A stretch of 39,923 bases of DNA, taken from Candidatus Kapaibacterium sp. Its GTDB lineage: Bacteria; Bacteroidota; Ignavibacteria; Kapaibacteriales; HRBIN21. Positions 14,335 through 31,014 of this stretch are shown piece by piece (positions within the stretch are counted from its first letter, which is position 1; each line of letters starts with the position of its first letter). The notes under the pieces are model-generated. The model was given only the letters and a program-made list of their open reading frames with translations. It was not told where the DNA came from and searched no databases. A program made the translations under genes and the position numbers. Location: the NCBI GenBank assembly GCA_938084565.1, contig CALKEU010000015.1, positions 1-39,923 on the forward strand, read 5' to 3'.

Positions 14335-14415
14335 GGTAACTCCTGCCAGTAACACAGTTGCCCTGCGAAGTTAGCAGAGAGTCCCGAATTTAGGAGTCAC
14401 TTCCGGGAGTGAGTG

Positions 14416-16434
14416 ATGTGGTCCCTTGTGGTAGCAGCGAGCTGCGTGCTCGTCAGTTTTGCGCAGGAACAGACCTGGCGCGTCTTCTTCCGCGACAAAG
14501 GCCCGGAGCCTTTTCGGGTGGGCAGCTCACTCTATGAGCGGACACTCCAGCAGCTTTCGCCGCGGGCACGGATGCGGAGGGCGTGGGTTCGCCCGCCTGA
14601 TTCACTCGTGACACTGGCTGATGCTCCGCTCTATGGTCCCTACGTCGATAGCGTGCAGCGGCTTGGGGCATCAGTGTGGCTGCAGCTACGGTGGAACAAC
14701 TACGCGGTTGTCCGGGCTGACTCCACTACTGTTGAGCGTCTACGGCAACTGTCTTTCGTGCGAGCTGTACAGCCAACCGGGCAGATTCCTCTGCCGCTGC
14801 CCAGTCGTCCCAAAGGGTCCTCGGTGGGGATAGCGGAGAGAGGGGAGCGCTCCTTACAGTGTGGGGCCTTCGAGTACGGAGCATCGTGGAGACAGCTCCA
14901 GATGCTCGAGATTCCCCTCCTGCACCGAATGGGGCTCACTGGGGATAGTGTCCTGATTGGGCTCTTGGATACGGGCTTCCGGTGGCGTGATGTTGCAGGA
15001 TTGCAGCATGTACGAGTGCGGGGGGAATGGGACTTTCTCGGCTGGGATTCTGTGACAGCCAACCAGGGAACGGATCATCCGCTCCAGGATGCACACGGTA
15101 CGGTCGTGTTGTCAGTCCTTGCGGCCCTCCGGCCGGGCGAACTCATCGGTGTAGCGCCGACGGCAGGTTACCTGCTGGCTAAGACGGAGGACATTACTGC
15201 GGAGCGGCATATCGAGGAGGATGCCTATGCGGCAGCTGTGGAGTGGATGGAAGCGCAGGGAGTGGATATCCTCTCCTCGTCGCTAGGCTACCGGGACTTC
15301 GATGCCCCGGAGGAGTCCTATACGGCCGAGCAGTTGGACGGGCGCACAACGATTGTGGCCCGGGCAATAGGAGCAGCGGCCGAGCGCGGAGTGCTCTGCC
15401 TTACAGCGATGGGGAATGACGGAGTGCGGGGGCTGAACTCTCCGGCCGATGCCGACAGTGCTGTGGCCGTTGCTGCTGTTGACAGTGCCGAGCAGCGGGC
15501 TCCGTTCAGCTCCGTTGGCTTCCGGCGTGGTGAGAGAGTGCGCCCGACAGTGGCGGCCATGGGGGTTGCAGTCGTGGCCATAGGGCCTGAGGGGAGGCTG
15601 CTGCGGGCCTCCGGTACGTCAATGGCAACCCCGCTTGTGGCGGGGGCACTGGCTTTGCTGCGGGAGGCGCGGCCAGATCTTCCCCCGTGGACGGTACGGC
15701 AGGCAATGTTGCAGACGGCCTCCCGCGGTATGCAGCCTGATACGCTCGTTGGCCATGGTGTTCCACGCCTTGCGCGAGCGCTGGCCGAGCTTGGAGGGGC
15801 CATAGGCCCGCCGGCTGTGTGGGAACTTGCCTCGGGAGCGATACGCCTGGCCTGCTTCGGGCTGATTCCCTTCAGCGTCTTCCGTGCATGGCTCCAGTGG
15901 GCTCCAAAGCCGTCAGAGGAAGCCCTCACCGGGACCCTCCTTCTGCGGGCTGTTGCTCAAGAGGAGCTGATGCTGCTATACGGGGATCTTCCGCGGGCGC
16001 TCCTCCAGGACAGCGTATGGGTGCGTATCCGGGTGGTTGGACTCAGTGGACAGAGTATAGCAAGCCGGTGGTATCTGTTGCCCTCCCAGCCGAGCATCCC
16101 CTGTGGGATGGAGATACCGGAAGGGGTGTACCGAGGTGAGGCTACTCCTGAGGCGGAACTCCGCCTCTTTCCGAATCCCCTCCAGGCGGGACGGGAGTGC
16201 ATCGTGCACTTGCCGGGGGTACATCCGGCTAGTCGGCAGCCGGCGCATGTGGTGTGCCTCTGGGATATGCTGGGGCGGGCTGTGCTGTGCTTGTCGCTGC
16301 CTGCTCTCGATGGCGTGGGGGAATGGACGGTGCGGCTCCCGACTGTGGGACTGTCGGCGGGCCCTTACTGGGTGGAAGCTTGCTATGGCCAGGGCAGAGA
16401 GGATCGTCTCAGAGCGCTGCTGATTATTTACTGA
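14416..16434 (+). CDS. Secreted subtilisin-like serine protease (S8) with T9SS sorting domain
   Basis: 672 residues. ATG 14416 with GGGAG about 6 bases upstream is preferred over the in-frame GTG just before it. Order: signal peptide (~1-18), an I9-like propeptide region (KGPEPFRVGSSLYERTLQQL onward), then the S8 catalytic domain. The triad is Asp185 (IGLLDTGFRW), His227 (DAHGTVVLSVLAA) and Ser402 (GTSMATPLVAGALALL), with a likely oxyanion Asn in TAMGNDG. The C-terminal ~90 residues form a T9SS type A domain (LRLFPNPLQAGRECIVHLPG ... LSAGPYWVEA). It is therefore exported by Sec, then secreted or anchored by T9SS. The SDR gene follows after 30 bases. Confidence 0.92.
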   Translation: MWSLVVAASCVLVSFAQEQTWRVFFRDKGPEPFRVGSSLYERTLQQLSPRARMRRAWVRPPDSLVTLADAPLYGPYVDSVQRLGASVWLQLRWNNYAVVRADSTTVERLRQLSFVRAVQPTGQIPLPLPSRPKGSSVGIAERGERSLQCGAFEYGASWRQLQMLEIPLLHRMGLTGDSVLIGLLDTGFRWRDVAGLQHVRVRGEWDFLGWDSVTANQGTDHPLQDAHGTVVLSVLAALRPGELIGVAPTAGYLLAKTEDITAERHIEEDAYAAAVEWMEAQGVDILSSSLGYRDFDAPEESYTAEQLDGRTTIVARAIGAAAERGVLCLTAMGNDGVRGLNSPADADSAVAVAAVDSAEQRAPFSSVGFRRGERVRPTVAAMGVAVVAIGPEGRLLRASGTSMATPLVAGALALLREARPDLPPWTVRQAMLQTASRGMQPDTLVGHGVPRLARALAELGGAIGPPAVWELASGAIRLACFGLIPFSVFRAWLQWAPKPSEEALTGTLLLRAVAQEELMLLYGDLPRALLQDSVWVRIRVVGLSGQSIASRWYLLPSQPSIPCGMEIPEGVYRGEATPEAELRLFPNPLQAGRECIVHLPGVHPASRQPAHVVCLWDMLGRAVLCLSLPALDGVGEWTVRLPTVGLSAGPYWVEACYGQGREDRLRALLIIY

Positions 16435-17172: not shown

Positions 17173-18291
17173 ATGGAGAGTGTGGCCATTATCATGGCAG
17201 GGGGAAGTGGGGAACGCTTCTGGCCACTGAGCCGGCAGCAGAGGCCGAAGCAGCTCTTGCAGCTCACACCTTCGGGGCGAACTCTAGTGGAAGAGGCCGT
17301 CGAGCGACTCTCTGGAGTGGTGCCGGCAGAGAATGTGTACGTGCTCACCTCGCCGGCACTTCAGGCATTGTTGCGCCGGAAGTTACCGCAGGTACGCCCG
17401 GCCCATGTCGTTGCTGAACCCGTGCGTCGCAATACTGCCGCCTGCCTTGTGCTAGCAGCTGCCCTCATCGTGGAGCGCTTCGGGGAAGCGGACAAGATTC
17501 TCATGGCAGCTTTCCCATCGGACCACGTGGTAGAGCCGGTGGAGGAGTTTCAGCGTACGCTGCGAGTAGCCCTTGCGTATGCAGCGCAGGGGGAGTATCT
17601 CTTCACCATTGGCATTGTGCCGACCCGTCCGGAGACGGGTTACGGCTACATGGAGTTAGGTGAGGAGCTCGGCAGTACCGATGGCGTGGTGGCCTATCGC
17701 GTGCGTCGTTTCCGGGAAAAGCCCAGCCGTGAGGTGGCCGAGGAATTTCTCCGCAGTGGCCGCTTCCTCTGGAACAGTGGCATGTTCTTCTGGCGTGTGG
17801 ATCTTTTCATAGAGGCATTACGTCGCCACATGCCTGCCTTCTGGAGTCAATGGGAAGCTCTCCGTAAGGCTGTCCGGCCATGGGTAGAGCAGCCCGTCGA
17901 GGGCCCCTATCCTGAGTTGCAGGCGATCTTTGAGCAGTTGCCCGATGTGTCCATCGACTACGCCTTGGCCGAACGGGTCGAACGGCTGGCCACCGTGCGG
18001 GCCAGCTTCCGCTGGGATGATCTCGGAGCTTGGGATGCTCTGGAGCGGATCTTCCCTACCGACAGCCGAGGCAATGTCGTCATTGGGGAAGTGATCCTGC
18101 AGGATTCCGAAGGCTGCATCGTGCTGGATGCCCGGGCACATCCGCAGGCGGTGGTCACTCTCGTGGGCCTGCGTGAGTGCGTGGTGGTACTCACCGACGA
18201 TGCCCTGCTGTGTTGTGCAAAATCGCACGTCCAGCAAGTGCGGCATACTGTAGCCTACTTGCGCGAACACGGCTACGAGGCGGTGCTATAA
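17173..18291 (+). CDS. manC: Mannose-1-phosphate guanylyltransferase
   Basis: The enzyme makes GDP-mannose from mannose 1-phosphate and GTP, for glycans and exopolysaccharide. 372 residues, i.e. the guanylyltransferase domain without the isomerase extension of bifunctional ManC/AlgA. The signature loop is intact: AGGSGERFWPLSRQQRPKQ (residues 9-27). FPSDH, ETGYGY, FREKPS, LWNSGMFFW, SIDYALAE and WDDLGAWDAL are all present. ATG 17173 has GAGGTG 5 bases upstream. The stop overlaps the hutI start (TAATG). A second, degenerate paralogue lies at 29929-31014. Confidence 0.93.
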   Translation: MESVAIIMAGGSGERFWPLSRQQRPKQLLQLTPSGRTLVEEAVERLSGVVPAENVYVLTSPALQALLRRKLPQVRPAHVVAEPVRRNTAACLVLAAALIVERFGEADKILMAAFPSDHVVEPVEEFQRTLRVALAYAAQGEYLFTIGIVPTRPETGYGYMELGEELGSTDGVVAYRVRRFREKPSREVAEEFLRSGRFLWNSGMFFWRVDLFIEALRRHMPAFWSQWEALRKAVRPWVEQPVEGPYPELQAIFEQLPDVSIDYALAERVERLATVRASFRWDDLGAWDALERIFPTDSRGNVVIGEVILQDSEGCIVLDARAHPQAVVTLVGLRECVVVLTDDALLCCAKSHVQQVRHTVAYLREHGYEAVL

Positions 18292-19574
18292 TGGCAACCC
18301 TTCTGGTCAACATTGGGCAGCTTGTGACTATCAGCACGGGAGGGGAGCGCTGGAAGGCCGGGGCAGCACTCCGGGAGCTGGGGATTCTCTCCGATGCGGC
18401 TATGGTGGTCGGAGAGCGCATTCAGTGGATTGGCTCTCCGTCGGAGGCCTATCGGCTCCGCGAAGCCGGGCTCTTACAGTGGGATACTCTCTACGACGTT
18501 GGGGGCCGAGTTGTTGTCCCCGGATTTGTGGATTCGCACACGCATGCGGTCTTCGTAGGTAGCCGGGCCCATGAGTACCGACAGCGGCTGGCCGGTGCCA
18601 CGTACCAGGATATTGCAGCAGCCGGTGGTGGTATCATGGCCACCGTCTATGCGGTGCGCCGAGCAAGCGAAGAGGAACTCGTCGAGGCAGCGCGTCCCCT
18701 GCTGTGGAATGCTCTGCGCCATGGGACAACGACGATAGAGATCAAGAGCGGCTACGGACTGACGACGGCCGATGAGCTTAAGCTGCTGCGGGCTATCCGG
18801 CGCCTTGCAACGGAGCTCCCCCTCCGGATTGTCCCTACCTTCATGGGTGCTCACGCCCTCCCGCCGGAATACCGTGATCGGCGAGCTGCGTACGTGGAGC
18901 TGATCTGCCAGGAAATGCTTCCGGCCGTTGCAAGCGAAGGGTTGGCCGAATATTGCGATGTCTTTGCCGAGGAGGGCTACTTCACGCTCGAAGAAGCCGA
19001 ACAGATTCTGCGGACAGCTCAGGAGTATGGTCTTCGCCCCCGACTCCATGCCGACGAGTTTACCCCCCTGGGAGCAGCTGAACTAGCAGCACGGCTTGGA
19101 GCTGTATCGGCTGACCATCTTCTGTACGTGTCGGAGCAAGGCATTGCAGCATTGCGGGAGTCCGGTACCGTAGCGACCCTTCTTCCCGGAACCTCGTATA
19201 CGCTGCGCCTCCCCTATGCGCCTGCCCGTCGGCTCATTGCTGCCGGTGTCCCTGTAGCATTGGCTACAGATTGCAATCCTGGCTCGTGCTTCTGCGAAAA
19301 CATGCAAATGGTGCTCTCCTTGGCGTGTCAGTACATGGGCCTCCTGCCGGAAGAGGCTCTCGTTGCAGCAACGCTCAATGGTGCAGCTGCACTTGAGCGC
19401 TCCCACGAATTAGGGAGCCTCGAAGTGGGCAAATGGGCAGATTTCCTCATTTTGCAGCTCCGTGAAGTGGTTGAACTGGTCTACCACTTTGGAGTCAACC
19501 ACGTGGCAGAGGTCTGGATTGGCGGACGTTGCGTCTGGCGCGAATCGTCGCCCCCTGCTGTAGAGGAGTGCTAG
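18291..19574 (+). CDS. hutI: Imidazolonepropionase
   Basis: HutI hydrolyses 4-imidazolone-5-propionate to N-formimino-L-glutamate, the third step of histidine degradation. 427 residues, the usual size. Metal and substrate motifs are clear: VVPGFVDSHTHAVFVGSR, EYRQRLAGATYQDIAAAGGG, HGTTTIEIKSGYGLT, FMGAHALPPEYR, LHADEFTPLGAAELA, SADHLLY and ALATDCNPGSC. The C-terminus returns to the beta-sandwich (LEVGKWADFLIL). The start is ATG 18291 overlapping the manC stop, with GAGG 9 bases upstream; the frame reaches back to 18177 but that part lies within manC. hutH is about 15 kb away on the other strand, and hutU and hutG are not in the window. Confidence 0.95.
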   Translation: MATLLVNIGQLVTISTGGERWKAGAALRELGILSDAAMVVGERIQWIGSPSEAYRLREAGLLQWDTLYDVGGRVVVPGFVDSHTHAVFVGSRAHEYRQRLAGATYQDIAAAGGGIMATVYAVRRASEEELVEAARPLLWNALRHGTTTIEIKSGYGLTTADELKLLRAIRRLATELPLRIVPTFMGAHALPPEYRDRRAAYVELICQEMLPAVASEGLAEYCDVFAEEGYFTLEEAEQILRTAQEYGLRPRLHADEFTPLGAAELAARLGAVSADHLLYVSEQGIAALRESGTVATLLPGTSYTLRLPYAPARRLIAAGVPVALATDCNPGSCFCENMQMVLSLACQYMGLLPEEALVAATLNGAAALERSHELGSLEVGKWADFLILQLREVVELVYHFGVNHVAEVWIGGRCVWRESSPPAVEEC

Positions 19575-19747
19575 ACATGACATCTGATCTGGCATCGACG
19601 GTGGCCAGAATACAGTTGGACAGATCGTGCATCTGTCTTTGTCTGCGTGGGTGAGGAGATGGCCGAGGCAGCATGAGAACGGCAAACTTCATATATTAGC
19701 ACCCGTCCTTTGCGTGCCGCTTGTACCACAAATAACTGGGGTGTGTG

Positions 19748-21703
19748 ATGGTGCGTTCCACACTGTACTTGTTAGGGCTTGCGGTGGCAGGTTTATTCGT
19801 CGCTGGAGGGGTGTACGCCGGGCAGGGTGTGCGAACGGAACAGAAGGGGAACATCACTGTGCTCGACTTCCGGCTACCAGCGAACCTGCCCTTCTATCCA
19901 GTTGCCGGGCGGCCAAAGGTTGTATGGCATCGGGGGGAGTGCCGTGAGATCCCCGCTGCGCAGCAGCAGAGGAATTCTCTGCTCCGCCTTCCGGCACGGA
20001 CGCTGCAGACACCTCCAGGTGTGAAGATTGCGAGCACGTCCTATGACTGGCAGACCAATTTCCTCATCAAGAACCGTACTGTCTGGGCGGCATCGGACAA
20101 CATTCTCCAGCTGGTGTGGATGAGTGGTAGTGGGGATCCGTCTGGAGGATGGCCGGATCGGGGCACGTATTACGGTGCTGTAGATCTTGAGAACCCCGGG
20201 AATCCACAAGTTATGCCGACACAGCGAGGGTGGACACGTATTGAGCCTTCGCGTACGGGATGGCCGGCAGCAGCAGAGCTGCCCGGAGGAGCCCTGGCCT
20301 TTATGTCCCATACCCCGCTTCGGTTCGGCAAAAATGGAGGTGTGCTCGATGAGAATTGGACCGTCGCCCAGATAGGTCCGGAAGGGAGTCTCTGGCCCTA
20401 TATGACCAGCACCCCTGAGGGCTCGCTACACGTTGTCTATACTTACAGCAGTGGGCCCAATGCAGGACAGGTAGGCTACCTTCGCTCCACCGACCAAGGG
20501 CAGACGTGGAGTGAGGAAGTCTTCCTCTCTGGCGCAGATGCTCCACGAGCGGTTGCAGCGGCAGATCACTATGTTATCGAGTACGGTGGGGGCAAGCTCG
20601 TAGCAGGGTACTATGCGCTATTGCTGGAACGGGGACCGGGTATCGTGCTGCGCATTTCTACCGATAATGGACAGAGCTGGAGCGAGCCGCTTGGGATCTT
20701 TCCTGGGCAATTCCAGCTCACGCACTATGTGGACAGCACCGTCACCACCGATACGCTGCGTGTGACATACTTCCACACAGACACTGCGCTGGGCATAGAC
20801 ACCTACAGCATGCTCGTGGATGCCCAAGGGCGATTTCACATTCTGGCTACCATAGCAGGTTACTACTGGCAGGGGCAGATCAGCGACACCCTCCAACCCG
20901 GAGGGGGGGTGAGCGGGAGTGATACGTCCTATACGCTCGCCTTTGGTGGCGTATTCCCCGTGGCGGCATATCTCCTCGAAGGGAGTTCCGAGCCCGTATT
21001 GCTGGCTCTCCCAACGCCTGTGCTAGATGCCAATGGCAATCTCGTCCGCGTTGTCCATGCGCGGGCGGATGGTTACGTTGACAGGATTAAGCTCGGGCAG
21101 GATGATGAAGGTAAGCTCTATGCCGTCTTCATTGCGCCGAAGGAAGGGGATCTTGTGGAAGTGGAAGGGCAGACGCATGGATATGGGCACTTGTACGTAG
21201 TTGCGCAAGTGGACGACCAGACGTGGGGCAGCCCTATTGATCTGAGCCCCGACGGCATAGACTGCAGCTTCCCCACAGCCTCGAAGGGAGGCCCGGCGGG
21301 ATATGCACTGATTGTCTATCAAGCTGGGACGGTTCCGGGTTCGTTCGTCCAAGGTGCTCCGTGGGCGGCAGGCCTTGATGATGACATCTACGTCTACGCC
21401 TACGCCCTACCGGTTGGGGTGCGGGAGAGCACGCCAGAGGAGCTCTTCACACTACAGGTACGGCCGAATCCTCTAACGCAGTCGGGGTATGCACAACTGA
21501 AGAGCTCCGAGCCCGGTTGGGCAACCGTAGAGCTCTACACGCCCGTGGGCAGTAAGCTCCGGACGCTCTACGAGGGCTGGGTCAATGCCCATGAGACGCG
21601 TTTGCTCTGGGTAGATGTGTCGGAGCTAGCCTCGGGGAGCTACTATCTGAAGCTGCAGCTCAATGGGCGATCGATGCTGCAGCCAATCATCGTGGTGCGC
21701 TAG
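19748..21703 (+). CDS. Secreted sialidase-fold (Asp-box) protein with T9SS sorting domain
   Basis: 651 residues; ATG 19748 is chosen among tightly spaced GTG/ATG/GTG codons. The signal peptide spans ~1-25 (LYLLGLAVAGLFVAGGVYA). The middle is a beta-propeller with two good Asp-boxes, STDQGQTWSE and STDNGQSWSEP, as in BNR/sialidase-like folds. The sialidase arginine triad cannot be assigned by eye, so enzymatic activity is not claimed. The C-terminal ~85 residues are a T9SS type A domain (LQVRPNPLTQSGYAQL ... LASGSYYLKLQLNG). The 173-base gap before it holds no gene and no TAnnTTTG element that I can find. A hairpin follows the stop. Confidence 0.85.
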   Translation: MVRSTLYLLGLAVAGLFVAGGVYAGQGVRTEQKGNITVLDFRLPANLPFYPVAGRPKVVWHRGECREIPAAQQQRNSLLRLPARTLQTPPGVKIASTSYDWQTNFLIKNRTVWAASDNILQLVWMSGSGDPSGGWPDRGTYYGAVDLENPGNPQVMPTQRGWTRIEPSRTGWPAAAELPGGALAFMSHTPLRFGKNGGVLDENWTVAQIGPEGSLWPYMTSTPEGSLHVVYTYSSGPNAGQVGYLRSTDQGQTWSEEVFLSGADAPRAVAAADHYVIEYGGGKLVAGYYALLLERGPGIVLRISTDNGQSWSEPLGIFPGQFQLTHYVDSTVTTDTLRVTYFHTDTALGIDTYSMLVDAQGRFHILATIAGYYWQGQISDTLQPGGGVSGSDTSYTLAFGGVFPVAAYLLEGSSEPVLLALPTPVLDANGNLVRVVHARADGYVDRIKLGQDDEGKLYAVFIAPKEGDLVEVEGQTHGYGHLYVVAQVDDQTWGSPIDLSPDGIDCSFPTASKGGPAGYALIVYQAGTVPGSFVQGAPWAAGLDDDIYVYAYALPVGVRESTPEELFTLQVRPNPLTQSGYAQLKSSEPGWATVELYTPVGSKLRTLYEGWVNAHETRLLWVDVSELASGSYYLKLQLNGRSMLQPIIVVR

Positions 21704-21801: not shown

Positions 21802-24800
21802 ATGCGCCGGGCGTTGGTCTACAGTGCTATTCTTGTGGCCTTCTCAACATGGGTATGGGCTGGCATCTATGGGATTCTGGCCGGACGGGTGACTGATAAG
21901 GAGGGAAAGCCCATCCCAGGTGCCACAGTCCGTATTGAAGGGACAACACTGGGCGGCTTTGCACGCGCCGATGGGCGTTTCAGTATCGTGAATATCCCAG
22001 CAGGGACCTATACCGTGGTGGTCCGAGCCGTGGGCTACCGTGAAGTACGTCTCCAGGTGCGGATCTCGGCCGACCAGACGACAGACATTGCGGTCCAGTT
22101 AGAACCCGAAGCTGTCCGAGTGCAGGAAGTAACGGTTGAAGCAAAAGCTCCACTGGTGGAGAAATACGCCATTGGAACACTGCGCAACATCAGCTCGGAG
22201 GAGCTGCGCAATATTCCGCGGCAGACCGTGCAGCAGGTTGCCCTTCTAACCCCAGGGGTTCTAGCTGCTGGCAATGGCTTCATCGTGCGGGGCAGTCGAG
22301 CCATTGAGACGCAGATCCGCTTGGATGGGCTGGATATTGCCGATCAATTCGTTGGAGCTTTCGGCAATGGAGGCTTTCGCTATTTCCCAACGGTGAGCAA
22401 TCTGGCTGTCGAGGAGGTGCAAGTGTTGACGGGGAATTTCGCTGCTGAGTACGGCAATGCCCTGGGCGGGGTTGTCAATACAGTAACCAAGACAGGACGG
22501 ACGGATCGCTACGAGGCAACGCTGCGCTTCTATACCGATGATGTTGGATTCCTCTATGGGAAAGCCCGCAATGGTCTGAGACGGCTTCCACGGAAGGAGT
22601 ACAACTACGAACTTGCCTTCGGTGGGCCAATCCCGCTCTTGTCTGGCTCCACGTTCTACGTGACGGCGCAGTATCTGACCAATAGGCATCGCAATGCTGG
22701 CCTGGAGGTACGTGATCCCTGGGGGAATAGCTGGGGGCAACTACCGCAGGATCGAACGTGGATGCGCTCTCTGAGCGCTCGCCTCAAGTTCGCGGTGACG
22801 AAAGACATTAACCTCTTGCTCGGCGGGATGTTTGGATTGACCGACTACGAGCGTCCCTCGATCGGGTGGATGTATGCTCGGGACGAGGGCATCGTGGATG
22901 GGGTGAGCAACGGCGTACCGACCTACTTGGCCAAACGAGCCGTTATCGATCAATTTGTCGGCAATGTGCTTGCGCGCATCACCCATACACTGAGCCAGAC
23001 AACCTACTACGAGCTTACGGTGTCCAATACGTGGAATGTCAATGAGGTGTCCCGACGCTACCTGGCCTACGAGCCCGGTAGGGGGTGGGTCAAGGGGTAC
23101 TTCGACCGTCCGCATTTCTTCAAGGGCTTCGATCTGTGGTATCCCCAGGATGAATACGTCATCGAGGGCAACCAGCTCCTCCGTAAGGAGCTCCGGGGTG
23201 GCGTTGGAGACAAGGTCATCGATCACTACTCTCTGTTGACCGGGCAAACCGTGAGTGAGGATGGCTATCTTATCACCGTTCGGCCGATCCGCCATCCATG
23301 GACCGGATACGTCGAGGGTGGATCGAATGCCACGAGTACTCGCAATCCATATGGGCTCCAAGGGTTCTTTGCCGGCGCGGGCAACGAGCGGGCCTTTGAG
23401 TTTCGCTACTCGCAGTACTTCCAGGTCGATGGCTATGTGACGAGCCGAGTCGAGGTGGGGGATATCGTGCACTTGCTCAAAGCGGGCTTCGAGACGCGCT
23501 TCCTGAGGCTCCACTATCACTACAACAGCCTCCCGTGGGATGGGAATGCGTTCTTCGATGTCTACACCGATCGGTGGGGCGGCAACATTTATGCCGAGAA
23601 TCAGCAGGTATGGCAGCTGACCAGTAAGCCTTACAAGCCGTATACGATTGCCGCATACGTGCAGGATCAGTTTGCCTACCGGGGTATGATTCTCAACCTG
23701 GGCCTGCGCTTTGACTATTTCCAGCCGAATGCGAAGTACCGCACGGAGTCTCAGCGCTTCATTCCAATCCAAGAGCAGGCCTACTTTGCTCCGGCCACGG
23801 CGAAGTTTCTCTTGAGTCCGCGCGTTTCGATCAACTATCCCATAACGGAGCGCTCGGCTTTCTCGGTCGCTTATGGTATCTTCCAGCAAATGCCTCAGCC
23901 GCGCTTCCTCTACGATGCTCTCAATACCTTCCGGTTGCGGGGGAATCAAATCTTGGGGAATCCGAATTTGGGGACTCAACGGAGCAATCAGTACCAAGTT
24001 TCCTACGCCCATTCGGTGACGGAGGATTTTGCCGTTGACGTGACGGCCTTCTACAAGGACATCTACAACCAGGTGGGACTCCGGTACGTGCCCACCCTTC
24101 CTGATCCGTATTCGGAGTATACCGTGGCAGAGTATGGCAATGTCCGGGGCTTCGAGCTGCGCTTGCGGCGTCGTCCGGTAGGGAATTTCGCCTTCGATCT
24201 TAACTACACACTCTCGTATGCTCGTGGCACAGCCTCTGGCCCGACGACGCAGTACTGGCAGACCATTCTGGCGGGTGAAGATCCCTACACGGGGACCAAG
24301 ACTTTCCCCTTGACAGAATACTTCCTCGACTATGACCGCCGACATGTGGTGAACTTCTCCCTGTCCTTCTTCCTCCGTGAGGGGGAAGGTCCGTCAATTG
24401 CCGGTTTGCGCCTCCTAGAGAATACGACGTTGAACCTGACGGGCTTTTTCATGACCGGCACGCCGTATACGCAGCGCGATCGGCAGGGGAACCAGATTGG
24501 TGAATACAACGGTGCCCGGCAACCTTCGGATTGGAGTGTTGATATGCGCTTGCAGCGCGCTATCCCGCTCCATACTGTGTTGGGTGAGGCCTTCAAGAGG
24601 GCAACGCTGGAACTCTACATCGACGTTTTCAATCTGCTCAACAATACCAAGCCCGTTGCAGTCTACGAGCGGACCGGAAGCCCAGACTATGACGGGGTAG
24701 ACCTCAATCGGCAGATTGGCGACTTCAGTATTGTCAACTGGTACAGAGATCCGGACCCGAATCGGCCTGAAACTCTGAGCCCAGCGCAGTACGACAGCTA

Positions 24801-24966
24801 TGGCCGGCGCCTCTACTCGCCCGATGCAGATTTCAACCGCGATGGTATCGTCACGCAGGAGGAGAAGTACCAAGGTTACCTGCGGTGGGTGCGGGATACC
24901 ATTGGCCGGCAGCTCAATTATCGACTGCCAAGATCGATCAATCTCGGATTCATGCTGCGTTTCTGA
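21802..24966 (+). CDS. TonB-dependent outer-membrane receptor with carboxypeptidase-regulatory-like N-domain
   Basis: 1054 residues. Signal peptide ~1-20. Residues ~25-110 are a carboxypeptidase D regulatory-like domain (GRVTDKEGKPIPGATVRIEG, GRFSIVNIPAGTYTVVV). The plug spans ~120-240 (LRNIPRQTVQQVALLTPGV, FIVRGSRAIETQIRLDGLDI, EYGNALGGVVNTVTKTG). The remainder is the barrel, ending LPRSINLGFMLRF with a terminal Phe. No convincing TonB box precedes the plug. An EF-hand-like loop (DFNRDGIVTQEE, residues 1010-1021) sits near the C-terminus. It is followed after 55 bases by the 1271-residue exported protein and then a PorV-like gene, all plus strand, suggesting an operon. The imported or displayed substrate is unknown. 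Confidence 0.92.
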   Translation: MRRALVYSAILVAFSTWVWAGIYGILAGRVTDKEGKPIPGATVRIEGTTLGGFARADGRFSIVNIPAGTYTVVVRAVGYREVRLQVRISADQTTDIAVQLEPEAVRVQEVTVEAKAPLVEKYAIGTLRNISSEELRNIPRQTVQQVALLTPGVLAAGNGFIVRGSRAIETQIRLDGLDIADQFVGAFGNGGFRYFPTVSNLAVEEVQVLTGNFAAEYGNALGGVVNTVTKTGRTDRYEATLRFYTDDVGFLYGKARNGLRRLPRKEYNYELAFGGPIPLLSGSTFYVTAQYLTNRHRNAGLEVRDPWGNSWGQLPQDRTWMRSLSARLKFAVTKDINLLLGGMFGLTDYERPSIGWMYARDEGIVDGVSNGVPTYLAKRAVIDQFVGNVLARITHTLSQTTYYELTVSNTWNVNEVSRRYLAYEPGRGWVKGYFDRPHFFKGFDLWYPQDEYVIEGNQLLRKELRGGVGDKVIDHYSLLTGQTVSEDGYLITVRPIRHPWTGYVEGGSNATSTRNPYGLQGFFAGAGNERAFEFRYSQYFQVDGYVTSRVEVGDIVHLLKAGFETRFLRLHYHYNSLPWDGNAFFDVYTDRWGGNIYAENQQVWQLTSKPYKPYTIAAYVQDQFAYRGMILNLGLRFDYFQPNAKYRTESQRFIPIQEQAYFAPATAKFLLSPRVSINYPITERSAFSVAYGIFQQMPQPRFLYDALNTFRLRGNQILGNPNLGTQRSNQYQVSYAHSVTEDFAVDVTAFYKDIYNQVGLRYVPTLPDPYSEYTVAEYGNVRGFELRLRRRPVGNFAFDLNYTLSYARGTASGPTTQYWQTILAGEDPYTGTKTFPLTEYFLDYDRRHVVNFSLSFFLREGEGPSIAGLRLLENTTLNLTGFFMTGTPYTQRDRQGNQIGEYNGARQPSDWSVDMRLQRAIPLHTVLGEAFKRATLELYIDVFNLLNNTKPVAVYERTGSPDYDGVDLNRQIGDFSIVNWYRDPDPNRPETLSPAQYDSYGRRLYSPDADFNRDGIVTQEEKYQGYLRWVRDTIGRQLNYRLPRSINLGFMLRF

Positions 24967-25021
24967 ACGCACCGGTGGCAGGGTCTACGAGCAGTTGTCG
25001 AACTAACGGTAGGGGTCTCCG

Positions 25022-28000
25022 ATGCGAGGTCGGCGTGCACTGGTTGCAGTTTGCGTGATAGGAGCTGGCGTGCTTGTCGGTCAGGCTCGCACGGCATACG
25101 ATACCAAGCCAGGCAAAGAGGGTGATCCTACCCAGCCTCTGCGTCTGGCGCAGAGCACGTTTGAGCAGCGCAAAAACCGCGTCAGCCGTATTGAGTTCTA
25201 CACGACCAACTACGGCATCTTTGGGCTCAATATTGCGGCCAATCGTGGAGGGGGCTTCTGGCCGCGAGGCTCTCAGAATCAGTACATCTTCGGAGGAGGT
25301 ATCTGGCTTGCGGCCAAGAAGTGGGTACGGGATGAGTTGCGCAAGCTCGTTATCCTCTCTTACAACCCCAACTCAGGGGCATCGTGGATGGTGCCCGGAC
25401 GCGTTGCCGATGGAGATGAGTACAGCGACGACCTGAAGGATAAGTATCAGTTGTACTTCTCCACGGACTATGCGCCCGATGGGACTCCGCTACCCGAGAA
25501 AGCAGGTGAAGCCCCTCGGGGACCCAATTGGCCGCTCTGGATCACATCGGAGACCGAAACCCTGAAAGTCAATCGCTACTTCGGGGATTACGTGGATGAT
25601 TTGGACAAGCGGAACGTAGCAACGTACCCGCGTGGGCCAGCGTTCATCTCGCAGGAGGACATCTGGAGTGTTTTCAAGGATACGGATCTGCGTCGCTACG
25701 AAGGTGGTGTTGCCGTACGCCGCTCGCAAGGGTACCCGCTGCGGGTGGATATTGAACAGACCATCTACTCGTGGGGCTTCGGGGATTACGGGGATTTCAT
25801 CTTTCTGAAGTACGTCATCATCAATCGCTCACAGGATACGCTGTGGGAATGCTGGATGGCCCCAGCCATGGACTTCGATATTGGTCCGGCTGGTAATCCC
25901 GTGGGAATAGCCGGCAATGACCGCGTCCGCTTCTACGACGAGGATCCGAGCCTGAATTTAGCCATTCAATGGAGCAACCCGGATCAGGGAGAGGCGGGAA
26001 AGGGATTTGGCTACTTGGGAATGACCTTCCTGGAGAGTCCCGCCGTTGATCCGCTGACGGGCTTCATCCGTAAGGACAAGCGCTTCTATCCCCTCAGTGA
26101 GCAGCTTGGGTTGGTAACGTTCCGGAACTGGGTCATCCAGAATGACCCTTCGGGGGATGAGGAGCGGTACGACTTCATGGCAGCCCGTGTCCGTGAGGGT
26201 GACACTGGGCCTGGAGATAAGCGCTTCCTGATGGCAACCGGCCCCTTCAATATGGCCCCTGGTGATACTGCGCGAGTTGTCGTCGGATTGGTTCTGGCTC
26301 CAACCTCTACGGGAGCCGATCCGACAGGGTATGGAGACCTGGATGAATTGGTCCGCAAGGTCCGCTTTGCGCAAGCTGTCTACGATGGCGGCTTCAAAGC
26401 GCCGGTGCCACCAGACCGGCCGAATGTGACGTGGAGGCCCCTCAACAATGGTATTGTTGTCCAGTGGGATTCCACGGCTGAGTACTCCTACGACGACAGT
26501 GAGCGCGGATTGGATTTCCTTGGATATCGGCTCTACCGGGCACGGCGTATGGATCTGGATTCATTCGATGTGGACAATCGGCCTGCGGTGGCACGGGGTC
26601 CTTTCGGTTGGAAGGAGATTGCTCGTTGGGAAGTGCCTTTCCCGTTTGTCAAGAAAAGCGATCGCCCGCTTCTGCCAGGGGTAAGCCCCTACCCGCTTCT
26701 CGATTCGCTTGTGTTCCTCTCGCAGATCGATTCGTTTACCGTAGAAGTAGCCCGTGTTGGCTACGGCGGTGAGCCGTGGGGAGAGTTCTGGCAGAGTCTG
26801 GATCCGAACCAACGGAACCTGTACCTCCGGGGCAGGGTCGAAATTAGCCGAGCATTGACCGGGGGACGGGGCTTGAGGCGAGCAGACTTTCCTACGGTAG
26901 CCGAGTTCCTCAACGCTCTCTACGACTATATCCAGCAGGGGAAGGCAACCCCTATCTTTCGTGACTTCGACGATGACCTAGCTATTCGGCAACGCGTGCG
27001 CCAGACCATTGCCCGCTACATGGCACAGGTGACTAACAATCGTACGTTTGTCGATATCGGGGATGATAATCGCAACGGTGTCGTCGACGAGCATCCCGAT
27101 CCGACTCGTACGGAACGCCTCTTTAACAACGTGGACTACTACTACCGCTTGCTTGCCTACGACGAAGGTGACCTCATCCAGCGAACGCCGAGCAAGCTCA
27201 ACATTGGAGTTACAGGAGTTAACGTCATTCAGGCTTTTCCGCGTTCGGCCCCGGCCAGCGAGCCAGCGACAGTGGCCATCACGAATGTGGACCAAGAAAA
27301 GATAGGCGGTATCTACAACGTGCGATTTCTCGTACAGGATCCGCAGCGCCTCCAACAACTCTTTGCCGGCCATGAGCTCGAGATAGAATTCCGTCCCCTG
27401 TGGTTTGGAACCGCCTTCTTGGCCCCATCGGGGTCGGTCAATGGGATTTACGCCCGGGAGATCATCTTTCGCGATCTAACGGCGGGAACAGAGCTGGGGC
27501 GCTACCAGACCCTGTTTGAACCGACACAGTGCCAGAGCAGTGTGCTGGGTATGCCGTCAGAATTTGCCGGCGTATCGACGGGCGATACGACGCAGGGGAT
27601 TGGACGCTTGGATACCGTCGGGTATATCCAGCGGACGGGGACATTCCGGACCGACGTGGCTTGTAATACCCCGAATCAGTATGTGTTCGGGACGCTCGGC
27701 TTTGCCTTCGACTATGCTCTCCAGCAGTGGGCTGGGCAGTATCGCCCCTACCGGGCTGAGCGGCGTTCGGCAGCTGATGTGCCTGTCTATGCTGACCGGA
27801 CACAAGTACAGCTGACACAACCGGATCCGGTGACACGCCGATATGTGAGTTTCAACAACGGTCCGGCACGCTATCTCATCATCTTTGAGCCGGGAGGAGT
27901 TGAGACAGTCACCGTGACGTGGAATTCTGGGCGGAACACAAAGGAGGTGCAGGTGCCCTACTACAACATCCGGGTGGTCAACGACATCAGCTTTGAGCGC

Positions 28001-28837
28001 TCCGATCCGGAAACAGGGCGCCCGGTAAGGGTAAGCTATCCAGGCGAGTTGCCACGTGAGGAATTGAGTCTTACCCGTGGGAGCGGCCCTGATGCTCGAC
28101 AGGTTCCTATAGGGGCATACGGCTTTGCTGCCGTACCGTGGGTCAACGGGCGGAGCGCCGATGGAATCGCCCAGCGGCGAGTGCAATTGGGCGATTGGAT
28201 GCCGACGCAGGGGCGGTATTACCTCTCGGTTGTTGACGGCACCGATACGATCGACTTCGTCCATGTCTTTGTGGCGTCAGGCTGTCGGTTCGTAATAGAC
28301 TTTGCTAACAAGCGTGGATGGGCGGTGTCCCCATTGGCCGGAGTCGATCGCGCCCCGGAACCGAGTCGGGATTTTCAGCCTGGAGATACAGTTGTCTTCG
28401 AGACAACGGGTGGAGCGTTGGGATTGCCTCTGCCGGGGGCCAAGATTCGCGCTCGCGTAAGCCAGCCCACACCGCCGGACCGCATAACTGATGCTATCCT
28501 CGAAGAGCAGGTCAAGATTGTGCCAAACCCGTACTATGTCGTCCACCAGGCCCAGCGCTCTCAGTACGATGCAAAGATCTTCTTCACGCGGCTACCCGAG
28601 CGGTGCACAATTCGGATTTACACGCTCGCTGGCGAGCTTGTTCGAACGTTGGAGTATGACGCTCGCACGGCACAGGAGGTTGGACGTCTAGGGGTAGCAA
28701 TCTGGGACCTACTCTCGGACAACCTCCAGCGAGTTGCCAGCCAGGCGTTCGTAGCACACATTGAGACGCCGAACGGGGCCAAAGCGGTACTTCCCTTCAG
28801 TGTCGTCGTTGGTGGCATTCGGCAAGTTCCAGAATAG
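25022..28837 (+). CDS. Very large exported protein paired with the TonB-dependent receptor
   Basis: 1271 residues with a signal peptide (VAVCVIGAGVLVGQARTA). I cannot assign a family. Residues ~45-100 contain aromatic/Gly-rich motifs (NYGIFGLNIAANRGGGFWP, YIFGGGIWLAAKKW). Around residues 475-510 there is an FN3-like stretch (FLGYRLYRARRMDLDSFD). A Ca-binding-type loop DDNRNGVVDEHP lies at residues 681-692. The C-terminal ~110 residues (VKIVPNPYYVVHQ, CTIRIYTLAGELVRTLEYD, GVAIWDLLSDN) resemble the FlgD-Ig/T9SS sorting fold, but the terminal strand is atypical. It is expected to be surface-exposed, possibly a receptor partner as SusD is for SusC, although it shows no SusD features. A GGTAGGGG ribosome-binding site precedes the ATG. 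The PorV-like gene follows after 16 bases. Confidence 0.8.
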   Translation: MRGRRALVAVCVIGAGVLVGQARTAYDTKPGKEGDPTQPLRLAQSTFEQRKNRVSRIEFYTTNYGIFGLNIAANRGGGFWPRGSQNQYIFGGGIWLAAKKWVRDELRKLVILSYNPNSGASWMVPGRVADGDEYSDDLKDKYQLYFSTDYAPDGTPLPEKAGEAPRGPNWPLWITSETETLKVNRYFGDYVDDLDKRNVATYPRGPAFISQEDIWSVFKDTDLRRYEGGVAVRRSQGYPLRVDIEQTIYSWGFGDYGDFIFLKYVIINRSQDTLWECWMAPAMDFDIGPAGNPVGIAGNDRVRFYDEDPSLNLAIQWSNPDQGEAGKGFGYLGMTFLESPAVDPLTGFIRKDKRFYPLSEQLGLVTFRNWVIQNDPSGDEERYDFMAARVREGDTGPGDKRFLMATGPFNMAPGDTARVVVGLVLAPTSTGADPTGYGDLDELVRKVRFAQAVYDGGFKAPVPPDRPNVTWRPLNNGIVVQWDSTAEYSYDDSERGLDFLGYRLYRARRMDLDSFDVDNRPAVARGPFGWKEIARWEVPFPFVKKSDRPLLPGVSPYPLLDSLVFLSQIDSFTVEVARVGYGGEPWGEFWQSLDPNQRNLYLRGRVEISRALTGGRGLRRADFPTVAEFLNALYDYIQQGKATPIFRDFDDDLAIRQRVRQTIARYMAQVTNNRTFVDIGDDNRNGVVDEHPDPTRTERLFNNVDYYYRLLAYDEGDLIQRTPSKLNIGVTGVNVIQAFPRSAPASEPATVAITNVDQEKIGGIYNVRFLVQDPQRLQQLFAGHELEIEFRPLWFGTAFLAPSGSVNGIYAREIIFRDLTAGTELGRYQTLFEPTQCQSSVLGMPSEFAGVSTGDTTQGIGRLDTVGYIQRTGTFRTDVACNTPNQYVFGTLGFAFDYALQQWAGQYRPYRAERRSAADVPVYADRTQVQLTQPDPVTRRYVSFNNGPARYLIIFEPGGVETVTVTWNSGRNTKEVQVPYYNIRVVNDISFERSDPETGRPVRVSYPGELPREELSLTRGSGPDARQVPIGAYGFAAVPWVNGRSADGIAQRRVQLGDWMPTQGRYYLSVVDGTDTIDFVHVFVASGCRFVIDFANKRGWAVSPLAGVDRAPEPSRDFQPGDTVVFETTGGALGLPLPGAKIRARVSQPTPPDRITDAILEEQVKIVPNPYYVVHQAQRSQYDAKIFFTRLPERCTIRIYTLAGELVRTLEYDARTAQEVGRLGVAIWDLLSDNLQRVASQAFVAHIETPNGAKAVLPFSVVVGGIRQVPE

Positions 28838-28853
28838 TGGGAGGGAGCTGACG

Positions 28854-29915
28854 ATGCGTGCACATACGATTGCGGGGATTCTGCTCACAGGTGTGGCCCA
28901 CCTTGCAGCACAGCTCTATGCTCCATCGGCTGGGGAGTTCAAAAAGGTCGGTGCAGCAGGATCGCAGTTTCTGAAGATCCCAGTTGGGGCACGCGCTGTT
29001 GGATTAGGAGGAGGGGGGAGCGCTGTCAATGATTTGTCGGCCGTCTACTGGAACCCTGCCGGGATTGCAGATATAGCGAATCTGAGTGGCCATTTCTCCT
29101 ACACTCAGTGGTTCGGCGGCTTCTCGCACAACTTTGCTGCTGTCGCTATCCCTCTGGGAGAAAACTACCGCATTGCTGCCAGTCTGGTCAACTTCACCAG
29201 TGGGGATATCCCCGTGACCACCCTCGAACAGCCCGAGGGAACGGGGGCAACGTATACAATCTCGGACATCGCTCTCGGGGTTACTTTCGGGGGGCGGGTG
29301 ACCGAGCAGTTCTCCTTTGGGATTACGGGGCGCTTCGTACAGAATAGCCTGCTGGATGTCTCCAGCACGGGGCTTACTTTCGACGTCGGGACGCTCTACC
29401 AGACGGACTTTTACGGACTTCGGCTGGGCTTTTCCGTGCACAATTTGGGGCCGGATATGCAGTATACCGGCCAGGGGCTCTACATACGGCGTCGCCTCAT
29501 CGATGCTCTCAATGCTGATCCGACAGCCTTTAGCATCGTCACCAACCCCTACGCTATCCCGCTCATGTTTCGTGCGGGAATTGCCTTCGATGCTTTGAGC
29601 GTGATCCAAGGGCGTCAGCAGACACCCAAGCTCTACGCCGATGGGTACCAGGAGCATCGTCTGATTGCTGCGGTGGACTTTGAGACGTACTCTGATGTCC
29701 CGGAGCAGTTTGCTGTTGGACTGGAGTATACGTGGAACGATCTCCTCTCGGTACGGGCGGGCTATCGATTTGGCAACGACCAGATGTGGCTCACCGGCGG
29801 GGTTGGAGTACGGTACATCGGGAGCGGATTCCGTGGCCAGCTGGACTATGCTCTGACGCCAACTCGGCTGCTTGGGCTCGTCAATCGGCTGAGCTTGACG
29901 GTGGCTGTGGAGTAA
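28854..29915 (+). CDS. PorV/PorQ-family outer-membrane protein
   Basis: 353 residues from ATG 28854 with GGGAGGGAG upstream; the frame reaches back to 28761 but overlaps the previous gene. The signal peptide is followed by the diagnostic N-terminal motif of the PorV/PorQ/UPF0164 group: GAAGSQFLKIPVGARAVGLG, then AVNDLSAVYWNPAGIADI. The rest is a barrel (DIALGVTFGGRVTEQFSFGI, LRLGFSVHNLGPDMQYTG). In characterised T9SS, PorV carries cargo from the translocon to the attachment complex. Position immediately after a giant exported protein suggests a dedicated shuttle or assembly factor for it; this is inference. Its stop is 13 bases from the convergent manC-like gene. Confidence 0.88.
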   Translation: MRAHTIAGILLTGVAHLAAQLYAPSAGEFKKVGAAGSQFLKIPVGARAVGLGGGGSAVNDLSAVYWNPAGIADIANLSGHFSYTQWFGGFSHNFAAVAIPLGENYRIAASLVNFTSGDIPVTTLEQPEGTGATYTISDIALGVTFGGRVTEQFSFGITGRFVQNSLLDVSSTGLTFDVGTLYQTDFYGLRLGFSVHNLGPDMQYTGQGLYIRRRLIDALNADPTAFSIVTNPYAIPLMFRAGIAFDALSVIQGRQQTPKLYADGYQEHRLIAAVDFETYSDVPEQFAVGLEYTWNDLLSVRAGYRFGNDQMWLTGGVGVRYIGSGFRGQLDYALTPTRLLGLVNRLSLTVAVE

Positions 29916-29928
29916 GGGGGGAGATACG

Positions 29929-31014
29929 TCAGAGCAGGTTGTAGCGCTTCTTGCGGCGCAGGTATTGGACGACCTCGGCCACACGGTCGGAAGCGTCGCG
30001 GGGGCAGATCAGGATTGCCTGCTCGGTTTCTACCACGATGAGGTCGGAGACCCCGACGAGGGCAATGGGCTTGCCCCCGCAAGCGTTCACATAGCAGCAG
30101 CTGATATCGATGGCGATGATATCGCCCTGGAGCACATTGCCGCGAGGATCCTTCAGAGCGCGGCGATAGAGTTCGTCCCAAGTTCCCACATCGCTCCAGT
30201 CGAACGAGCAGCGTAGGGCGAGGATGTCTGAGGCAGCGCTCTCCAGGATACCATGTTCGATTGAGAGCGGCCGGAGTTGGCGATAGAGGGATTCGGTAGC
30301 TGCCCAGAGTTCCTCTGGGGAAAGGGTCCGGTAGCGCAGAGGGGCAAAGAGAGCGTAGTAGTCCGGGCAATAGCGTTCCAAGAGCTCCCATACAGTAGCC
30401 AGCGGCAGCGCAAGGATGCCTGTATACCAGAGGAAATCCCCCAACTCGAGGAAGCGTCGGGCTGTCTCGAAGTCTGGCTTTTCAGCGAAGGTGCGAACAC
30501 GGAGTACGCCAGGGAGCTCATCACCGTAGGGACCCTCCACTTGGACATAGCCGAAGCGTGTCTCTGGCCGCTTGGGAGGTAGTCCCAGTACAACGGGCTG
30601 GCGGGTGTGGGAAGCCACCCAGGCAGCATACTCCAGGCTTTGATGGAACTCGCCAACGTTGGCGATGGCGTGATCGGCCGGGAAGAGAAAGAGAATGGTC
30701 TCAGAGGGATAGCGCTGCTCCCACCAGAGTGCTGACAATGCCAGACACGGTGCCGTATTCCGGGCAATAGGCTCGAGGATAAGCTGGGAAGGAGGGAAAT
30801 CGGGTATGTGCCTCTGAAGCACGCTGCTGAGAGCTGCTGTTGTAGCAATGGCAATGCGTTCGGGAGCAAAGAGAGGGCGGAGCCGCTGGAGAGTATTCTG
30901 GAGCGTAGAGCCATCGGGGTGTAACGGGAGGCAGAATTTGGGCATCTGCTGGCGGCTCTGGGGCCACAGGTAAACGTCGATACCACCGGCTAAGATCGTC
31001 GCAACAGCATCCAT
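29929..31014 (-). CDS. ManC-like protein with degenerate nucleotidyltransferase signature
   Basis: 361 residues, colinear with ManC: FPADHAI, RPETRFGYVQVEG, FAEKPD, SIEHGILES and WSDVGTWDEL are kept. The signature loop is not. Where ManC has GGSGERFWPLSRQQRPKQ, this protein has GGIDVYLWPQSRQQMPKF (residues 10-27), so the loop Gly and Arg and the final Gln are lost while Lys26 stays. WNSGMF is also changed to WYTGIL. Reading the DNA in other frames does not restore the motif, so this is substitution and not a frameshift. It may be a catalytically impaired or regulatory paralogue, or have altered nucleotide or sugar specificity. AGGAG lies 6 bases upstream of the ATG. It is last in the hutH-fsa-acnA direction but has its own candidate promoter. 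Confidence 0.85.
   Translation of the reverse strand: MDAVATILAGGIDVYLWPQSRQQMPKFCLPLHPDGSTLQNTLQRLRPLFAPERIAIATTAALSSVLQRHIPDFPPSQLILEPIARNTAPCLALSALWWEQRYPSETILFLFPADHAIANVGEFHQSLEYAAWVASHTRQPVVLGLPPKRPETRFGYVQVEGPYGDELPGVLRVRTFAEKPDFETARRFLELGDFLWYTGILALPLATVWELLERYCPDYYALFAPLRYRTLSPEELWAATESLYRQLRPLSIEHGILESAASDILALRCSFDWSDVGTWDELYRRALKDPRGNVLQGDIIAIDISCCYVNACGGKPIALVGVSDLIVVETEQAILICPRDASDRVAEVVQYLRRKKRYNLL

Follow-up and report, generated by a model that had tools for sequence, protein, structure and literature searches.

A conserved gene trio of TonB-dependent receptor, giant T9SS-type protein and PorV/PorQ-family barrel in a Candidatus Kapaibacterium contig and its relatives

Gene Content of the Locus

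The window analyzed here (the whole stretch of DNA, 39,923 bases) is an entire contig of a 1.87 Mb genome in 16 contigs. It carries three consecutive plus-strand genes—for a TonB-dependent receptor, a giant exported protein and a PorV/PorQ-family outer-membrane barrel, hereafter the trio—whose ORF coordinates leave intergenic gaps of 55 and 16 bases, the co-directional layout and spacing that the first-pass annotation had claimed. The mechanically called start of the barrel ORF, TTG 28761, overlaps the giant gene; ATG 28854, preceded by GGAGGG, is a plausible start and gives a protein of 353 aa and the 16-base gap. The giant has named relatives at 80–84% identity in Candidatus Kapaibacterium sp. 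SKYG35, Bacterium HR21 and a Bacteroidota MAG. As the same gene order recurs in relatives (see below), the trio arrangement is not a chance one. The features of the region are as follows.

19745..21703, plus strand: BNR/sialidase-like repeat protein, 652 aa, with a type A-like C-terminal domain (BNR_2; TIGR04183 near cut-off)
21802..24966, plus strand: TonB-dependent receptor, 1054 aa (CarbopepD_reg_2, Plug, borderline OMP_b-brl_3; C-terminal F)
21880..22137, plus strand: receptor carboxypeptidase-regulatory-like domain, N-terminal (PF13715, residues 27–112)
22180..22473, plus strand: receptor plug domain (PF07715, residues 127–224)
25022..28837, plus strand: giant exported protein, 1271 aa (ORF; homologues in 104/119 genomes of the order)
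25022..25087, plus strand: giant, Sec signal-like segment without lipobox (sequence)
25151..26401, plus strand: giant, predicted super-beta-sandwich domain, N-terminal, about residues 44–460 (AlphaFold model, fold search)
26402..28474, plus strand: giant, middle region, predicted to be beta-rich with a helical insertion (confident model)
28475..28831, plus strand: giant, T9SS C-terminal domain of PorU/PorZ type, residues 1152–1270 (profile bounds, hhalign, fold)
28854..29915, plus strand: PorV/PorQ-family outer-membrane barrel, 353 aa (NF033709; PorV 6h3i chain F)

The receptor was correctly called in the first pass as a TonB-dependent receptor with a carboxypeptidase-regulatory-like domain. 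In Pfam, CarbopepD_reg_2 scores 73.8 bits (cut-off 32.2) and Plug PF07715 36.0 bits (cut-off 23.9), OMP_b-brl_3 is borderline (26.7 vs. 27.0), and the last residue is F, as in outer-membrane barrels; the protein has the plug domain within an outer-membrane barrel by which a TonB-dependent receptor is defined. It fails the SusC/RagA model TIGR04056, reaching 66.5 bits against a cut-off of 368.25 in a match confined to residues 27–242.

The third gene is likewise the dedicated PorV/PorQ-type barrel that had been proposed: the PorV/PorQ family model NF033709 scores 177.9 bits against a cut-off of 90, and the best solved relative is PorV (6h3i chain F, E 1.6e-9). The barrel stays below the equivalog cut-offs of both PorV (76.8 vs. 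250) and PorQ (81.7 vs. 220), and its match to Toluene_X/FadL is weak and under cut-off (E 5.8e-5). Because the genome has a canonical PorV, which passes the PorV equivalog cut-off at 251.2 bits, and a PorQ-like gene elsewhere, the window barrel is an extra one and not the general shuttle.

Architecture and Probable T9SS Secretion of the Giant Protein

As a whole protein the giant matches no Pfam family, and NCBIfam matches only its C-terminal domain. Its earlier description as belonging to no recognizable family holds for Pfam but fails by fold and profile, where both the N- and C-terminal domains are recognizable. The protein opens with a Sec signal-like segment. There is no lipobox in the window giant and a lipobox-like motif in just 2 of 70 relatives' giants; together with the lack of a Pfam match, this agrees with the earlier statement that the giant has neither SusD features nor a lipobox.

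The giant was modeled with AlphaFold on alignments of relatives, in two overlapping parts (mean pLDDT 86.1 for residues 44–1155 and 86.5 for residues 735–1271). Its predicted N-terminal domain aligns at Z 15–20 over about 220–280 residues with the N-terminal domains of GH94/GH15/GH65/GH116 enzymes, e.g., dextran dextrinase (Z 19.8) and glucodextranase (Z 18.9), with 236–254 residues aligned at about 3 Å. In GH94, GH15, GH65, GH116 and related enzymes this super-beta-sandwich precedes a catalytic (alpha/alpha)6 barrel; a catalytic-barrel fold is not among the matches listed for the giant, a listing that is not readable as absence. With the modeled fold a carbohydrate ligand is plausible, but a shared fold shows neither function nor ligand binding. 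Farther along, the middle of the giant (26369–27230) has no Pfam match and residues 735–1150 gave no clear match in the fold search. Over residues 735–1271 that search clearly matched the C-terminal domain only, and the alignment to a flagellar FlgK domain (Z 9.6) is made up of 87 scattered residues. By sequence, the giant found nothing above noise in the PDB except the C-terminal domains of PorZ (E 0.013) and PorU (E 0.034), and its C-terminal alignment alone, searched there, found no match.

The C-terminal domain is of the PorU/PorZ kind. Among the tails of 27 giant-family members, the PorZ model matches 21, the PorU model 10 and the type A cargo model 5. Compared by hhalign with tails drawn from the same order, the giant's domain scored 2.5e-9 to PorU, 3.4e-7 to PorZ and 3e-7 to type A tails, and its best fold match is the PorZ tail (5m11 residues 686–776; Z 9.7, 2.4 Å, 87 residues); profile and fold both identify it as a T9SS Ig-like C-terminal domain. 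The type A sorting model TIGR04183 does not match the window giant and matches 5/27 relatives weakly (best E 0.016), and the giant matches no sortase, nor PorZ beyond the tail. T9SS machinery is encoded in the same genome: SprA, PorU with the canonical PorV just downstream, the PorQ-like gene, and a PorZ-like gene (254 bits, just under the cut-off of 260). Delivery by the T9SS, as first suggested, is well supported by this machinery and by the PorU/PorZ-type domain.

In Porphyromonas gingivalis, PorV holds PorU and PorQ holds PorZ at the surface (PMC5562754). Both surface proteins keep their C-terminal domains once secreted (PMC11285876), and one review suggests that cognate PorV-like barrels shield domains of this kind from being cleaved (PMC10202324). 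Type B cargo has a PorP/SprF barrel of its own, the gene of which commonly lies immediately downstream, and the tail of the cargo determines where it finally resides (PMC12618676). With a PorU/PorZ-like tail and its own PorV/PorQ-family gene directly downstream, the giant fits this PorU:PorV or type B cognate-barrel logic well. Being of the PorU/PorZ kind, its C-terminal domain is probably uncleaved, and by the same analogy we regard T9SS secretion of the giant together with anchoring by the barrel as very probable.

Conservation and Co-inheritance of the Trio

Conserved adjacency in relatives had been set beforehand as the refutation test for the first-pass annotation, and adjacency is what emerged, both in the order and outside it. 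N-terminal peptide patterns, scanned across named genomes and blind to neighbors, gave 80 loci, in 79 of which the giant is callable; the gene immediately before it is the receptor in 77/79, and the one immediately after it the barrel in 65 of the 69 loci with a next gene in view. The giant is present in 104 of the 119 order genomes covered and absent from all 10 sampled genomes of family f6 and from five genomes of 86–92% completeness. At the scale of the phylum, a profile of the N-terminal domain (N-domain) searched over 148 genomes matched in 79. The best-match regions show receptor, N-domain protein with tail, and barrel in 57/66, with the receptor adjacent in 62/66; outside the order, the trio occurs in 53 of 61 distinct best-match loci (the 66 regions minus three duplicates and two from the order). 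Across 72 trios the median gaps are 20.5 and 13.5 bases.

Lower-ranked N-domain genes in the same genomes number 53, of which 21 form trios; the other 32, without a complete trio, mostly encode solitary or tandem proteins. Since such proteins occur without receptor or barrel, the N-domain needs no receptor. The cassette is thus widespread in the phylum, and the N-domain also exists outside it. One such protein is encoded in the window's own genome (L049:1330-3204), with a T9SS-type tail and an N-domain match at E 8e-31, and no receptor or barrel in the stretch seen. At two loci, L140 and L056, the giant is followed not by the barrel but by two minus-strand genes, an arrangement that offers a natural way to see whether the giant can make do with a different barrel. 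We also found the Kapaibacterium-type cassette in records titled Melioribacter roseus, Bradyrhizobiaceae, Armatimonadetes and Desulfobulbaceae (L113, L115, L125 and L153), titles that are probably wrong.

The three proteins also travel together. In a set of 37 trios from 14 genomes with at least two trios each, trio paralogues within one genome share a median identity of only 24–30%, and between-genome distances correlate at rho 0.85 for receptor and giant, 0.86 for giant and barrel, and 0.85 for receptor and barrel. When partners were shuffled within genomes the correlation was 0.03–0.05, and the observed value was never reached in 2000 trials; nearest neighbors agree in 24–28 of 37 cases vs. 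a shuffled mean of 4–5. Inheritance keeps each trio together as a fixed set, and no partner swapping is apparent. Such co-inheritance is consistent with a complex but is no proof of one, because physical linkage alone can produce it.

Neighboring Genes and Regulation

The gene upstream of the receptor in the window encodes the BNR-repeat protein (BNR_2 30.0 bits; TIGR04183 19.9 bits, just under the cut-off of 23), and the same T9SS cargo family occupies the position just before the receptor in many loci of the order. Ahead of the cassette, most loci of the order carry the gene of an ECF-type sigma factor and a second gene, its partner, which probably encodes an anti-sigma factor. In near relatives L091 and L092, sigma factor and partner fill the interval that separates the BNR gene from an imidazolonepropionase-like gene, an interval that in the window is just a short gap (19574–19745); the L092 partner protein, used as query, found no copy in the window's own genome and copies in 2/6 genomes of the genus. 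The partner gene (L050:386-2342) begins in L092 with a weak zf-HC2 match, and its C-terminal part looks, on visual inspection, like an outer-membrane barrel, which would be an unusual build for an anti-sigma factor.

On the other side, the trio is followed in much of the order by a conserved succession of genes, for a GWxTD-domain protein, a lipid A acyltransferase, a glycosyltransferase family 9 member and a pseudouridine synthase-like protein (L050:13293-17527). The sigma factor, its partner, and the GWxTD, lipid A acyltransferase and glycosyltransferase family 9 genes are all missing from the window. Elsewhere in the window, two diverged mannose-1-phosphate guanylyltransferase-like genes on opposite strands (17173–18291 and 29929–31014) flank the region, and a subtilase-family protease (14413–16434) has a weak match to a type A-like tail profile (E 1.7e-5) and is possibly T9SS cargo.

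A Possible Three-part Outer-membrane Machine

We propose, with a little better than even confidence, that the trio forms a three-part outer-membrane machine in which a T9SS-delivered, barrel-anchored giant serves the TonB receptor in uptake. The giant would cross the inner membrane via Sec and the outer membrane via the T9SS, which would read its C-terminal domain. That domain, probably uncleaved, would be plugged onto the co-encoded PorV-type barrel as a permanent anchor; both its retention and the anchoring role of the barrel are drawn by analogy. Anchored in this way, the giant would sit over or beside the receptor, its large beta-rich outer part, made up of the super-beta-sandwich and other domains, would capture ligand, and the ligand would be handed to the receptor for TonB-driven import, with the giant in SusD's place. 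The parts of this proposal differ in strength: the anatomy, the T9SS-type C-terminal domain, the T9SS of the genome, the conserved cassette and the faithful co-inheritance of partners have good support, contact between receptor and giant seems reasonably likely, import as the trio's purpose is evenly balanced, and the cognate barrel might be a shuttle passing the giant to A-LPS, not a permanent anchor.

The giant could instead be an adhesin or coat protein on its barrel, with the receptor merely co-transcribed under the same nutrient state and no joint machine. Solitary and tandem N-domain proteins without a receptor would suit such a protein, as would the length and beta-richness of the giant and the fact that T9SS type B adhesins likewise pair with a dedicated barrel (PMC12618676); a mere co-expression partner, however, should swap more often than the strong receptor–giant co-variation suggests, and the receptor sits next to the giant in 77/79 and 62/66 loci, so that we consider this reading unlikely. 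A role in envelope modification is less probable again. Here the trio would be an offshoot of the T9SS attachment complex, in which a PorZ-like giant binds a glycolipid (e.g., A-LPS) and hands it on and the receptor is a TonB-energized handler of envelope sugars, as the PorZ-like C-terminal domain and the GWxTD, lipid A acyltransferase and glycosyltransferase family 9 genes after the trio in many genomes of the order might indicate. Yet those genes are missing behind the trio in the window and in its near relatives, loci outside the order do not generally have them there either, and the same genome has true PorZ-like and PorQ-like genes at other sites.

Two further readings change the task of one of the barrels. 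The receptor may help to export or assemble the giant, with no import, as Oar does with PopC in Myxococcus: PopC secretion there requires a TonB-dependent receptor (PMC6434023), and the strict receptor–giant pairing would fit. However, the giant bears a T9SS-type C-terminal domain and the genome encodes T9SS parts, so that a second route is not needed, and we hold this to be very improbable. That the PorV-type barrel is a FadL-type channel, making the trio a two-channel uptake system for lipids or hydrocarbons, is scarcely credible on present evidence; PorV is itself a FadL relative (PMC12578637) and the barrel has the weak Toluene_X/FadL match noted above, but its PorV/PorQ-family score is far higher and above cut-off, and the neighboring giant bears a T9SS-type C-terminal domain.

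Returning to the three-part uptake machine, we raise as a tentative extension, which may well prove wrong, that the trio represents a phylum-wide class of two-barrel TonB transport complex, in which a PorV-type barrel permanently anchors a T9SS-secreted capture protein and which does the work of SusCD where SusD proteins are few or absent. SusCD-type gates are the textbook route of large-nutrient uptake in Bacteroidota, with lipoproteins as surface parts, and the T9SS is mostly considered in connection with secreted enzymes, adhesins and virulence factors. Should the trio indeed serve uptake, large parts of the phylum beyond Bacteroidia would use a non-SusCD solution, and the T9SS would build a permanent part of a transporter. 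A function would also follow for many genes annotated just "TonB-dependent receptor," "hypothetical" or "PorV/PorQ family protein."

Comparison with Known Systems

Like SusCD/RagAB, the trio sets a TonB receptor with an N-terminal carboxypeptidase-regulatory-like domain beside a large surface partner, often several times per genome. Unlike them, its receptor stays far under the SusC/RagA cut-off (66.5 vs. 368.25 bits), its partner is not SusD but a beta-rich protein without lipobox and with a T9SS C-terminal domain, and the gene of a PorV-type barrel is the third member. Because the receptor fails the curated SusC model, "SusCD-like" can only mean "may work like"; as a statement of membership, the first-pass label did not hold, with the receptor at this score and no SusD_RagB protein anywhere in the genome. 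Genomes of family f6 (e.g., G275, G283 and G305), where the giant is missing from the whole sample, have 3–8 SusD genes each, whereas other families of the order have none or one per genome, with the sole exception of three in G386. This contrast is a hint of substitution, from one clade only. In the vitamin B12 system BtuB-BtuG, a TonB receptor likewise forms a stable complex with a surface partner; BtuG, however, is a lipoprotein, unlike the T9SS-type and probably barrel-anchored giant.

The pairs PorU:PorV and PorZ:PorQ resemble the other half of the trio, a surface protein with the same kind of C-terminal domain plus a PorV/PorQ-family barrel. They differ in that the giant lacks a sortase match and a PorZ match outside the tail, that the trio barrel falls under both equivalog cut-offs (76.8 vs. 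250 and 81.7 vs. 220), and that the pair is coupled to a TonB receptor. Type B cargo shares the gene order, in which the gene of a dedicated PorV-like barrel directly follows that of the cargo; in contrast, the giant's C-terminal domain matches PorU, PorZ and type A profiles rather than type B, the trio barrel is of the PorV/PorQ family rather than PorP/SprF, and type B pairs are described without a receptor (PMC12618676). The BAM accessory complexes of Bacteroidota, which also combine a FadL-type barrel with surface proteins, were set aside, as their surface parts are lipoproteins and the complex holds no TonB receptor (PMC12578637; PMC12611786). The cassette is not described in the literature covered on Ignavibacteria, Kapabacteria and Calditrichota, which is weak evidence of novelty given thin coverage of subscription papers and preprints. 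By the tests run, the trio is a member of neither group: it may work like a receptor with its surface partner and, at the same time, like a PorU:PorV pair.
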